From Halorubrum hochsteinianum (lineage in GTDB: Archaea; Halobacteriota; Halobacteria; Halobacteriales; Haloferacaceae), in assembly GCF_023702125.1 (NCBI RefSeq), contig NZ_CP098415.1:1860001-1924000 (forward strand): a stretch of DNA of 64,000 nucleotides. Direction: 5' to 3'. Shown in pieces: positions 28,775-63,963 of this stretch. Below the pieces are notes generated by a model, which saw only the letters and a program-made list of their open reading frames with translations, was not told where the DNA came from and made no database searches. The position numbers were made by a program, and so were the translations under genes. Position 1 is the first letter of the stretch. The number at the start of each line of letters is the position of its first letter.

Positions 28775-29686
28775 ATGGTCTCGGAGATCTTCGACCCCGA
28801 CGCGTGGGAGCCCGTCACCGACGAGTTCGACGACATCACCTACCACCGCGCGGTCGACGTCCCCGCGGTCCGGATCGCCTTCGATCGGCCCGCGGTCCGG
28901 AACGCCTTCCGGCCGGGCACGGTCGACGAGCTGTACGCCGCGCTCGACCACGCCCGCAAGCAGGCCGACGTGGGCTGCGTCCTCCTCACCGGCAACGGCC
29001 CCTCCGAGAAGGACGGCGGCTGGGCGTTCTGTTCGGGCGGCGACCAGTCGGTCCGCGGCGGCTCCGGCTACGAGTACCGCGACGACGACGAGGCGGGCGA
29101 CGAGGACGATCCGCTCGTCAAGGAGGCCCGCGCCGGCCGGCTCCACATCCTCGAAGTCCAGCGGCTGATCCGGTTCATGCCCAAGCCCGTCGTCGCGGTC
29201 GTCCCGGGCTGGGCGGTCGGCGGCGGCCACTCGCTGCACGTGATCTGCGACATGACCCTCGCCAGCGAGGAGCACGGGAAGTTCCTCCAGACCGACCCCG
29301 ACGTGGCCTCCTTCGACGGCGGGTTCGGATCCGCGTACCTCGCGAAACAGATCGGGCAGAAGAAGGCCCGCGAGGTGTTCTTCCGCGGGAAGACCTACTC
29401 CGCCGCGGAGGCCGAAGACATGGGGATGGTCAACGATGTAATCGCCCACGAGGAGTTAGAGGAGGTGGCTCTGGAGTGGGCCGACGAGATGACGCGGAAG
29501 TCCCCGACCGCGATGCGGATGCTGAAGTACGCGTTCAACATGGCCGACGACGGCATGGTCGGTCAGCAGGTGTTCGCCGGCGAGGCGACCCGGCTGGCGT
29601 ACATGACCGACGAGGCGGCCGAGGGCCGCGACGCGTTCCTTGAGGGTCGCGAGCCGAACTTCCGGGAGTATCCCTGGCACTACTGA
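28775..29686 (+). CDS. menB: 1,4-dihydroxy-2-naphthoyl-CoA synthase
   Basis: A 303-residue crotonase-fold enzyme of menaquinone synthesis that cyclises o-succinylbenzoyl-CoA. Typical MenB segments are AFCSGGDQSVRG (oxyanion and active site), VVAVVPGWAVGGGHSLHVICDMTLAS, KFLQTDPDVASFDGGFGSAYLA and the C-terminal EGRDAFLEGREPNFREYPWHY. The ATG at 28775 is preferred because a GTTTATG box lies about 28 bases upstream; an ATG at 28748 would fall inside that box. An acidic insert (YRDDDEAGDEDDPL) is a haloarchaeal trait. Confidence 0.93.
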   Translation: MVSEIFDPDAWEPVTDEFDDITYHRAVDVPAVRIAFDRPAVRNAFRPGTVDELYAALDHARKQADVGCVLLTGNGPSEKDGGWAFCSGGDQSVRGGSGYEYRDDDEAGDEDDPLVKEARAGRLHILEVQRLIRFMPKPVVAVVPGWAVGGGHSLHVICDMTLASEEHGKFLQTDPDVASFDGGFGSAYLAKQIGQKKAREVFFRGKTYSAAEAEDMGMVNDVIAHEELEEVALEWADEMTRKSPTAMRMLKYAFNMADDGMVGQQVFAGEATRLAYMTDEAAEGRDAFLEGREPNFREYPWHY

Positions 29687-54011: not shown

Positions 54012-55727
54012 GTGTACGCGTTGCTGCCAGTTAGCCCGCTGTACGCGGGGCTCGCGCTGGTTCCGCTCGCGCTGCTCCTGTTCACGCTCGTGGTGTTGCG
54101 GTGGCGCGCCCACGAGGCGGCGTCGGTCGGGATGTTCGCCGCGGCCGCGGTCGCGCTGGCCGCGTACGGGCTGTCCCCGGAGGCGCTGTCGGTCGCGAGC
54201 GGGAAGGGCGTCTGGGACGCGGTGTTCGTGCTGTACGTCATCGTCCCCGCGCTCGTCTTCTACCACGTGATCGAGCGGGCCGACGGCTTCGAGGCGCTGC
54301 GGACGCGGATCACGGCGTTCACCGAGAACGAGCTGTTCCTGGTTCTGGCGTTCGGCTGGGTGTTCGTCTCGTTCATACAGTCGATCTCCGGGTTCGGAAC
54401 CCCGATCGTCGTGGTCGCGCCGCTGCTGCTCGCGCTCGGCGTGAAGCCCGTGTACTCGGTCGCGATCCCGCTCGTCGGACACGCGTGGGCCAACACGTTC
54501 GGCACGCTCGGCGTCGCGTGGCTCGCGCTGGTCCAAGTGGTGGAGATGTAAAGCGTCGCGGCGACCGCGCTGGCGCTCGGCGTCCTGCTGTGGATCCCGA
54601 ACCTCGTCGGCGGGCTCTCGATCGCGTGGCTCTACGGCCGCTGGGAGGCCGTCCGCTACGCGTTCCCCATGGTCGCCGTCGTCTCGCTGATCCACGGCGG
54701 GGGGCAACTGGCCGCGGTGACGGTGATCCCGCCGGAGTTCGCGAACTTCTTCGCGGCGTCGGTCGGGCTGCTCGCGCTCGCGCCGCTGGCGGCGTGGAGC
54801 CGCTACGCGACGCCGACGGACGCCATCGAGCGCCGGCCGGTGATGGCGGAGTCGATCGCCGCGTCGGACGGCGAGGGGAGCTCCCCGACCGCCGTCGCGG
54901 ACGGCGGGACCGCGACGGCCGCGGACACGGTGGACCCGGCCGACGACGGGCTGATGAGCCTCCCGATGGCCGCGCTGCCGTTCGTCGCGCTCGCGGGCGC
55001 GGCGTTCGTCACCGCGGTCGTGACGCCGCTCTCGGACGCGCTCGGGTCGCTCCGGGTGGGCCTCTCGTTCCCCGAGATCGCGACGTCGTTCGGCGTCGTC
55101 ACCGAGGCGACCGCCCCGTACTCCCCGTTCTCGCCGCTGACGCACCCGGGGACGTTCCTGCTCCTCAGCGCGGTCGTCGCCTTCGTCGCCTACCGCCGTG
55201 AGGGGCACTACGAGGCGGCCACCGCCCGGGCCGACGAGCCGCGGGACGCGTTCTCGCGCACCGTCCTCGCGACCGCGATCCCGGCGTCGATCGCGGTCGT
55301 CTCCTTCCTCGTCATGGCGAAGGTGATGGACCACAGCGGGCAGGTGCTCGTGCTCGCGGAGAGCGCCGCGAGCGTCGCGACGCCGTCGACGTACGGCTTC
55401 TTCTCGCCGCTCATCGGGTCGCTGGGCGCGTTCATGACCTCCAGCAACACGGCGTCGAACATCCTGTTCGGCGGGCTCCAGCAGCAGACCGCCGCGCACC
55501 TCGGCGGGCTCTCCGAGCCGCTGATCCTCGCCGGCCAGAGCGCGGGCGGGGCGATCGGCAACGCGATCTCGCCCGGGAACGTCATCCTCGGGACGACGGC
55601 GGCCGGCATCGTCGGCCGGGAGGGCGACGTGCTCCGGGTGACCATCCCGTGGGTCGCGCTCGTCGGGGCGCTCGTCGGGATCGCCATCGTCGCGCTGAAC
55701 GCCGCCGGACTGCTGGGGGTGGCCTGA
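54012..55727 (+). pseudogene. L-lactate permease (LctP/LldP family), interrupted by an in-frame stop
   Basis: The 5' part (179 codons from the GTG at 54012) carries LctP features: LYAGLALVPLALLLFTLVVLRWRAHEAA, FIQSISGFGTPIVVVAPLLLALGVKP and HAWANTFGTLGVAWLALVQV. It then ends at a TAA (54549-54551). The same frame continues at once with the remaining helices, LLWIPNLVGGLSIAWLYGRW through LGAFMTSSNTASNILFGGLQQQTA and AGQSAGGAIGNAISPGNVILGTTAAGIVG to the normal C-terminus. So a single nonsense codon, not a frameshift, splits the gene. A restart from the ATG at 54669 would give only part of the protein. Confidence 0.9.
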
Positions 55728-55728
55728 G

Positions 55729-55911
55729 ATGGACGTGCTGAGTCGGTACACGCTCGCGTTCGCGCTCATGGCGCTGTCGCTGCCGGCCATCAGTTACGGC
55801 GCTTCGGCGGGGGTCGCGGTCGCGTGGGGCGTCGGCCTCGCGATGCTGTTCGTCGGGGGGCTCGTCCCGCCGGCGGTGCGGTTCGCGGCCGCCGACCCGG
55901 ACGCGATCTGA
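55729..55911 (+). CDS. Small two-helix membrane protein after the lactate permease
   Basis: A 60-residue protein starting MDVLSRYTLAFALMALSLPAISYGASAGVAVAWGVGLAMLFVGGLVPPAV, with two membrane helices and a short polar tail. Its ATG is one base after the permease TGA, so the two were translated together. It may be an accessory subunit of the transporter. No family recognised. Its ORF is intact although the permease is broken. Confidence 0.72.
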   Translation: MDVLSRYTLAFALMALSLPAISYGASAGVAVAWGVGLAMLFVGGLVPPAVRFAAADPDAI

Positions 55912-61392: not shown

Positions 61393-62472
61393 TTACCGAG
61401 AGGCGGTCGGCTCCGGCTGGCCGACGGGCTCCGGCTGGCCGACGGGCTCCGGCTGGCCGACGGGCGTCGGCGCGTCGCCGGCCTCGATCGCCCGCCGGGT
61501 CGACTCGCCGATCTCGACGAGGTGACACAGGGGGTTGCCGGGGTAGACGACCGGGTTCTCCAGCAGGCCGATCAACAGGCCGGTGAACGGGGCCTCGACC
61601 GCGACGGCGTCCTGCTTGAACGGGTTGGTGATCGTCGCGATCCGCTCGCCCTCGCGGACGAGCGACCCGCTCTCGAAGTGGGTGTCGACGATGCCGCCGG
61701 AGTCCGCGCGCAGCCACGTCTTCTCGCCCGCGCCGGCGACGATCGTCCGCCAGCCGGGCCAGCGGACGGTGTCGGTCTCCAGCAGGCCGTACTCGGCGAA
61801 GACGGAGCGGACCCCGGCGAGCGCGTCGTCGATCAGCGGGCGCTGGAACCGGTGGGCCTCGCCCATCTCGATCGTGATCGTGGGGATGCCGTCGTCGGTC
61901 GCCTCGCCGCGGAGGGTGCCGCCCGGCCCGTCGCTGTCTATCACCACCTTGGAGCCGAACGCCAGCGCGAGCCGGTGGACCGCCTCGTCGGTCATGTCCG
62001 CGCGGACGTGGAGCATGTTCGTCCGCCCGCGGGTGGAGGTGTGGAAATCGAGACCGAAATCGCAGGGCGCGATGAAGTTCTCGTAGATCCGGTGGGCCAT
62101 GCGCTTCGAGCTCGTCGACCCCGGTTTCCCGGGGAACGACCGGTTCAGGTCGCGGTCGTACACGGGGAGGTAGCGCTGCTGCGCGAGGAAGCCGGGGACG
62201 TTGAGGACGGGGAGACAGACGAGGGTTCCGGCCAGCTCCGAGAGGTCCCACTCGTGGGCGACCTCGCGGACGACCTCGATGCCGTTGAGTTCGTCGCCGT
62301 GGGCGGCCGCGGTGAGGAAGACGGTCGGCCCGTCGCGCTCACCGTTGACGATGGTGACCGGGATCCGCACCGGGTCGCCGAGGTACGTCTCGCTGATGCC
62401 GTAGCGGATGTTCTGCGTCTCGCCGGGCGGCACCGCCCCGCCGTTGTACGTGAACGCCCGGTCGTCGCCCAT
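61393..62472 (-). CDS. Succinylglutamate desuccinylase/aspartoacylase-like zinc hydrolase
   Basis: A 359-residue zinc carboxypeptidase-like enzyme. Zinc ligands are in TAAAHGDELNGIEVVRE (His and Glu) and CDFGLDFHTSTRG (His); the base Glu lies in TITIEMGEAHRFQ. The C-terminal domain (about 255-325) is the AstE/ASPA beta domain, GGIVDTHFESGSLVREGERIATITNPF. Relatives hydrolyse N-acyl amino acids. It diverges from a RimK-type ligase gene, as such hydrolases often do. The last 25 residues are three repeats of VGQPEP. The ATG at 62472 fits a TATA box 28 bases upstream. Confidence 0.88.
   Translation of the reverse strand: MGDDRAFTYNGGAVPPGETQNIRYGISETYLGDPVRIPVTIVNGERDGPTVFLTAAAHGDELNGIEVVREVAHEWDLSELAGTLVCLPVLNVPGFLAQQRYLPVYDRDLNRSFPGKPGSTSSKRMAHRIYENFIAPCDFGLDFHTSTRGRTNMLHVRADMTDEAVHRLALAFGSKVVIDSDGPGGTLRGEATDDGIPTITIEMGEAHRFQRPLIDDALAGVRSVFAEYGLLETDTVRWPGWRTIVAGAGEKTWLRADSGGIVDTHFESGSLVREGERIATITNPFKQDAVAVEAPFTGLLIGLLENPVVYPGNPLCHLVEIGESTRRAIEAGDAPTPVGQPEPVGQPEPVGQPEPTASR
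61411..61464. repeat. Three 18-bp tandem repeats in the hydrolase 3' end
   Basis: CTCCGGCTGGCCGACGGG repeated three times without a mismatch. They encode VGQPEP units in the C-terminal tail and mark a slippage site. Confidence 0.85.
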
Positions 62473-62496
62473 GCCGGAGCGGAACACGGCGGCGGG

Positions 62497-62504
62497 TATA
62501 TATA
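62497..62504 (-). promoter_or_regulatory. TATA box (TATATATA) of the hydrolase gene
   Basis: TATATATA centred 28 bases before the ATG at 62472, in a leaderless arrangement. Confidence 0.7.
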
Positions 62505-62610
62505 TGGCGACCCGGCGGCGAGAGCCCCGGCGGACTCCGTGACCGGACCACTCCGTCGCTCGAACGCACCGATCGGTCGTATTTTTAGCGGTCCCCACGC
62601 AGGGACTCGT

Positions 62611-63963
62611 ATGAGTTCGGACTCGGTACGGGTGGGAGTGCTGTCGCTACACAACAGCAAGGAGACGAAGGCGATCTGTAACGCGGTCGAGGACCTCGGC
62701 CACGAGCCGGTGTGGCTCCGCGAGGAGAACGCCGCCGTCAGCGTCGAGGACGGCGAGGTGTCCGTCGAGCCCGCGGTCGACGTGATCGCGAACCGCCTGC
62801 TCTTGTCCAACACCGACCAGCCCGCGGAGCTGCTGGGGCTGGCGACGACCTTCGAGCGCATCCGGCCGATGCTGAACGAGCCGGACGCGGTGCTGGCGTC
62901 GATCCACAAGTTCGCCACGGCCGCGACGCTCGCCGACTGGAACATCCGCGTGCCCGACGCGCTGTTGGCGCTCTCGAACGACCGCCTCAACGAGGGCCGC
63001 GAGCGCTTCGGCGACGTGGGCGTGTACAAGACCGCGATCGGGACTCACGGCGGCGGGACGTGGAAGGTCGATCTCACGGAGCGCGTGAACCCCAAGGTGG
63101 GGAACCGGCAGGCGTTCCTCCAGAAGCTCATCGAGCGCGACTCGGAGAAGCACCGCGACCTCCGCGTGTACGTCGTCGGCGACGAGATCGTCGGCTCGAT
63201 GTACCGCTACGCGCCGGAGGGCGACTGGCGGACCAACGTCGCGCTCGGGGGCGCGGTCGAGGACGCCACGGACGACATGCCCGACGAGGCCGCGGACACC
63301 GCGCTCTACGCGGCCGAGGTGATGGACCTCGACTACGCCGGCGTCGACCTCGTCGAGGGGTACGACGGCTGGTACGTCCTCGAGGTGAACCCCACCGCCG
63401 GCTTCAAGGGGCTCTTCGAGGCGACCGGGACCAGCCCCGCCCCGTACATCGCGAAGCTCGCGATCGAGACCGTCGGCGGCGAGGTCGACGACGACGCGGT
63501 CGAGCGCGTCGCCGCCAGCCTCGACGACTCGCGGCCCTCCTGTGCGCCCGCCCCGAAGCCGACCCCCTCCGAGCAGCCCGACATCGGCTACATCGAGGAG
63601 GTCGTCGTCACCGGGACCTCCGGCTCCACGCAGGCGCTCGCGAAGTCGGACACGGGCGCGACCCGGACGAGCATCGACACCCAGCTCGCCGCCGAGATCG
63701 GTGCCGGTCCGATCAAGAGCATGACCCGCGTCAAGTCCGGCAGCGTGAAGGGCGGGAAGGCGCGTCCCGTCGTCGACCTGGTCATCGGCATCGGCGGCAA
63801 CCAGCACACCGTCACCGCCAGCGTCGAGGACCGCGGCCACATGGAGTACCCGCTGCTGCTCGGCCGCGACATCCTCACCGACTACCGGGTCGACGTCCGG
63901 CGGCGCGCCGACACCGACGAGGCGGAACGCGGCGAGGCGGGGGAGATCCTAGAGGAGGAGTGA
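62611..63963 (+). CDS. RimK-type glutamate ligase fused to a RimB-like aspartic protease domain
   Basis: A 450-residue two-domain protein. Residues 1-300 are an ATP-grasp ligase of the RimK group: NSKETKAICNAVEDLGHEPVWL, VYKTAIGTHGGGTWKVDL, RVYVVGDEIVGSMYRYAPEGDWRTNVALGG and the metal-binding YVLEVNPTAGFKGL. After a Pro-rich linker, residues about 325-440 are a retropepsin-like RimB domain, with catalytic SDTGATRTSID and the second-strand YPLLLGRDILTDYRVDVR. RimK and RimB normally form separate proteins in bacteria; here they are one. Substrate (ribosomal protein, other peptide or coenzyme) is unknown. The start is the ATG at 62611. Confidence 0.9.
   Translation: MSSDSVRVGVLSLHNSKETKAICNAVEDLGHEPVWLREENAAVSVEDGEVSVEPAVDVIANRLLLSNTDQPAELLGLATTFERIRPMLNEPDAVLASIHKFATAATLADWNIRVPDALLALSNDRLNEGRERFGDVGVYKTAIGTHGGGTWKVDLTERVNPKVGNRQAFLQKLIERDSEKHRDLRVYVVGDEIVGSMYRYAPEGDWRTNVALGGAVEDATDDMPDEAADTALYAAEVMDLDYAGVDLVEGYDGWYVLEVNPTAGFKGLFEATGTSPAPYIAKLAIETVGGEVDDDAVERVAASLDDSRPSCAPAPKPTPSEQPDIGYIEEVVVTGTSGSTQALAKSDTGATRTSIDTQLAAEIGAGPIKSMTRVKSGSVKGGKARPVVDLVIGIGGNQHTVTASVEDRGHMEYPLLLGRDILTDYRVDVRRRADTDEAERGEAGEILEEE

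Follow-up and report, generated by a model that had tools for sequence, protein, structure and literature searches.

The interrupted lctP locus

The window, a stretch of 64,000 nucleotides of the Halorubrum hochsteinianum genome (contig NZ_CP098415.1, positions 1,860,001 to 1,924,000), carries a gene of the LctP family that is divided by one in-frame stop codon (Table 1). The frame is opened by a GTG at 54012 and, past the TAA that ends the upstream ORF, continues unshifted to a TGA at 55725-55727, yielding 571 residues when the stop is read as X. No in-frame ATG, GTG or TTG follows the TAA before 54669, which lies 39 codons or approximately 117 bases further on. The GC content at third positions was 0.96 in 54012-54551 and 0.99 in 54669-55727, in agreement with the claim of an earlier note that the codon bias of the gene has not decayed. 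The same note had described the frame as LctP-like on both sides of the TAA, without a shift, and as restorable by a single base change. Both statements held, as the two pieces matched consecutive parts of the PF02652 profile and the window codon is one base away from that of both nearest orthologues, from which the gene differs at 55 and 92 bases (TAA site included) with 0 indel columns.

Table 1. Features of the interrupted lctP locus, in window coordinates
Feature	Position	Strand	Description
5' piece of lctP-family gene	54012..54551	+	179 codons plus in-frame TAA; PF02652 profile 5-170, E 5.5e-25; GTG start aligned with relatives
Private in-frame TAA	54549..54551	+	Residue 180 of 571; sense codon in 10/10 orthologues having the site
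3' piece of lctP-family gene	54552..55727	+	391 codons plus TGA, same frame; PF02652 profile 177-519, E 7.8e-41
60-aa hydrophobic ORF	55729..55911	+	Intact, 1 base after lctP; no Pfam or NCBIfam match

The two pieces scored 88.6 and 140.9 bits against PF02652 (Lactate_perm) and the read-through of the stop 227.9 bits, all above the gathering cut-off of 27. Against TIGR00795 (LctP), the read-through gave one match covering residues 14-561 at 224.4 bits, which is below the curated cut-off of 341.15, and its 133.1 bits against the L-lactate permease equivalog fell short of the cut-off of 918 bits. The locus thus resembles the LctP / L-lactate permease family (PF02652, TIGR00795, COG1620) in that PF02652 and TIGR00795 each match the read-through from end to end, but it differs in its score below the TIGR00795 cut-off, a property shared by the intact relative L006 (227.7 bits). 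Since this cut-off is missed by the window gene and by L006 alike, the gene appears to belong to a divergent subfamily, whether broken or not, for which lactate is a putative substrate.

The small ORF directly downstream, which the earlier note had reported as intact, is indeed open and is conserved beside lctP in relatives. An orthologue (42-93% identical) directly follows lctP in 12/12 stretches, comprising those of the 10 haloarchaeal orthologues that are intact, the deletion locus of H. yunnanense described below and one duplicate genome, and the ORF may encode a small, uncharacterised partner of LctP proteins of this subfamily. Close behind the broken lctP there is also a gene for an MFS carrier, which is of the oxalate/formate-lactate type and scores below its family cut-offs. 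Elsewhere in the host genome, LUD-domain genes are present, as is a second LctP-family gene, which is intact and encodes 600 aa (G000:C1:816083-817801).

Orthologues of the gene and age of the lesion

Orthologues were searched for in 170 genomes of the family (E <= 1e-80) and were found in 11; one further orthologue, from Halorubrum sp. Atlit-26R (L035), lay outside those 11 and brought the total to 12. The relatives named at the locus are mostly Halorubrum, and two additional records (L033 and L034) duplicate the genomes of L004 and L006. A comparison with close relatives at 54549-54551, which the earlier note had named as a check, showed that 10 of the 12 orthologues (L004-L010, L035, L036 and L037) are full-length, lack an internal stop and keep a sense codon at the site, while the remaining two are the window gene itself, with its TAA, and the H. 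yunnanense gene, with an in-frame deletion. As these 10 intact orthologues have a sense codon, the TAA is private to the Halorubrum hochsteinianum genome among the 12. The window codon is one base off in 7/10 of the intact orthologues and two bases off in 3/10. Among bacterial relatives, the column of the site varies, and residue 180 is therefore not a conserved functional residue.

In the H. yunnanense orthologue (L043, L011; L043:4815-5525), approximately 356-358 codons are deleted in frame, leaving an open frame of 236 codons. The deletion junction is GC-rich, with left and right flanks that are alike over a few bases, and the neighbours on both sides are present with 58-81% identity. Judged from the assembled sequences, this deletion is unrelated to the stop in the window, so that the same accessory gene would have been broken independently twice, unless assembly faults are responsible.

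A search for the same gene on plasmids returned 14 records with partial matches of 60-80% identity, none of which covers 80% of the query. In a study of ten haloarchaeal genomes (PMC3102087), the tree of COG1620 (L-lactate permease) is named as one of those that disagree most with the species tree, and horizontal transfer is given there as the likely cause. This conflict would agree with an accessory gene that is gained and lost, assuming that the COG1620 genes concerned belong to the same subfamily as the window gene. A literature search for haloarchaeal lactate permease pseudogenes found no paper, though such a search cannot show that the case is unpublished.

Polarised codon changes on the window branch amounted to 15 synonymous and 8 nonsynonymous, compared to 49 and 14, respectively, on two sister branches together. 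This corresponds to a dN/dS of approximately 0.21 on the window branch and 0.11 on the sister branches, a difference that was not significant (Fisher p 0.27), and the stop itself is therefore the sole sign of lost function. In a simple mixture, the neutral share of the window branch was approximately 0.11, with an upper value of about 0.3 (a third), and no second lesion besides the TAA was seen in the window gene. The small neutral share and the lack of further lesions are in keeping with the view of the earlier note that any mutation is recent, a pattern which fits equally well with no loss at all.

Predicted structure and consequence of the stop

The intact protein of H. tebenquichense was modelled with AlphaFold from a 25-row alignment (mean pLDDT 83.9). 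In the model, residue 180 is part of a short loop that connects helices 168-176 and 182-236. No solved structure related by sequence was found at E up to 1; when solved structures were compared by fold, the model came closest to a MleN model (Z 22.5, with 414 residues at 3.7 A), and next, at Z 18-20, were NaS1, NaDC1, Pho90 and carriers of the INDY type. Across the best matches, the aligned length was 404-432 residues, with Z about 18-22. Carriers of the INDY/NaS1/NaDC type have a two-repeat build, and the modelled fold is like that of carriers of the IT superfamily.

Given this two-repeat fold, a stop at residue 180 would leave the 5' piece without the whole second repeat, and a restart at 54669 would, according to the model, lack the initial two thirds of helix 182-236. 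Neither piece should therefore be an active carrier, as judged from the modelled structure.

Origin of the in-frame stop

The stop could be a sequencing or consensus error, with the gene intact in the organism and the TAA present in the assembly only. It is private to one genome and is the sole lesion in an otherwise constrained gene, and substitution errors in an assembly would likewise give a private single-base stop that looks the same as a mutation. The quality of the sequence argues against this, since the 3.06 Mb host assembly is near-finished (two contigs, 99.23% complete) and the lesion is a substitution rather than a homopolymer indel. Moreover, no other broken gene was found among the real genes of the stretch in common with two relatives, in which coding-like ORFs were matched at 15/15 (G046) and 22/105 (G045); the remaining flagged ORFs seem, on inspection, to be antisense or over-extended frames. 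Within the window, an 813-aa ORF at 61522-63963 (+) aligns to two different frames of G045, which places a frameshift, real or introduced by assembly, on the G045 side.

A scan for stops flanked on both sides by coding-like frame covered 464 kb of the 3.06 Mb genome (the window and 20 stretches of 20 kb). At the strict setting, six stops were found, five of which have a start within one codon, the window TAA alone having none. The looser setting, with a sensitivity of approximately 85% (8338 of 9818 test positions) as estimated with a codon model trained on the same sequence, gave 11 stops, six with a start within five codons and five without. The latter comprise the TAA at 54549-54551, a stop at 29684 of the window and three weak candidates. 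The one at 29684 was discarded as a gene-internal stop, as it separates two ordinary genes, ECH and then CBS. The weak candidates (L121:3149, L122:5398 and L126:4998) are flanked on either side by frame that is weakly coding-like, have their first start 8-11 codons on, and are probably antisense frames or adjacent genes. These three aside, no other stop clearly inside a gene was found in the 464 kb, which again speaks against error; a control scan of 140 kb of G045 gave 0 matches. The terminators of 166 sampled long ORFs were 117 TGA, 33 TAG and 16 TAA, so TAA is a normal terminator here, and the scan gave no sign of a genome-wide reassignment of TAA or of generally poor sequence, both of which were rejected. 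An error at this position is thus unlikely, though it is the chief alternative to a mutation, and we infer from the assembled sequence that the TAA is real.

Recoding or readthrough to a full-length permease, or assembly of the two pieces into a split transporter, would draw on the retained codon usage and family match of both halves and on the position of the stop, which is predicted to fall between two helices, in a loop close to where the first repeat ends. The stop is, however, conserved in none of the 10 orthologues, and TAA serves as an ordinary terminator in this genome. Among 46 RF00005 matches in the genome, all of which were given sense anticodons by ARAGORN (Asn, Gln and Glu only with the intron option), no stop-reading tRNA was seen, and a suppressor tRNA was accordingly rejected as an explanation, with the reservation that tRNA-Trp is absent from the set, meaning that tRNAs with long introns may be missed. 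For Haloferax volcanii, termination-reinitiation coupling is described at overlapping stop-start pairs, with an efficiency expected to drop with distance (PMC6728339). On that basis, reinitiation is not favoured at the lctP TAA, whose first in-frame start is so distant. A split transporter would face the same gap, whose 39 codons span most of the opening part of helix 182-236. Taken together, this group of explanations is very improbable, and the chance that readthrough at some rate or assembly of the pieces yields a low-level or two-chain LctP-type transporter is slighter still. Translation of the stop, should it occur, would make the locus an uncommon example of haloarchaeal TAA readthrough.

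Of the three options offered by the earlier note, recent inactivation is thus favoured, while recoding lost ground with an unconserved stop and no stop-reading tRNA seen. The locus is most probably a recent nonsense pseudogene that arose by a single substitution. One base change in an accessory transporter gene of the LctP family would have turned codon 180 into TAA, and translation would halt after the first of the two structural repeats. Because the 3' part has no in-frame start nearby, neither piece would be expected to transport, and we infer that the locus gives no working product. The loss may have been tolerated because the gene is accessory, being found in few species and broken in H. 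yunnanense, and because a second intact LctP is kept in the genome; such redundancy is a plausible reason.

Comparison with known pseudogenes

The fitting annotation for the locus is that of a probable pseudogene, and lactate-type uptake by the strain should not be credited to it. Its repeated breakage, by a stop here and by a deletion in H. yunnanense, would provide a small example of a relaxed need for a redundant transporter. Compared to prokaryotic nonsense pseudogenes of accessory transporters, no distinguishing feature was found in the window lctP, which is known from assembled sequence. As in those cases, there is one premature stop that is absent from the orthologues and private to the lineage, the rest of the gene is intact, the relatives retain intact copies and a paralogue is present. 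The lctP stop is most likely an ordinary case of this kind, for which no new mechanism is needed.
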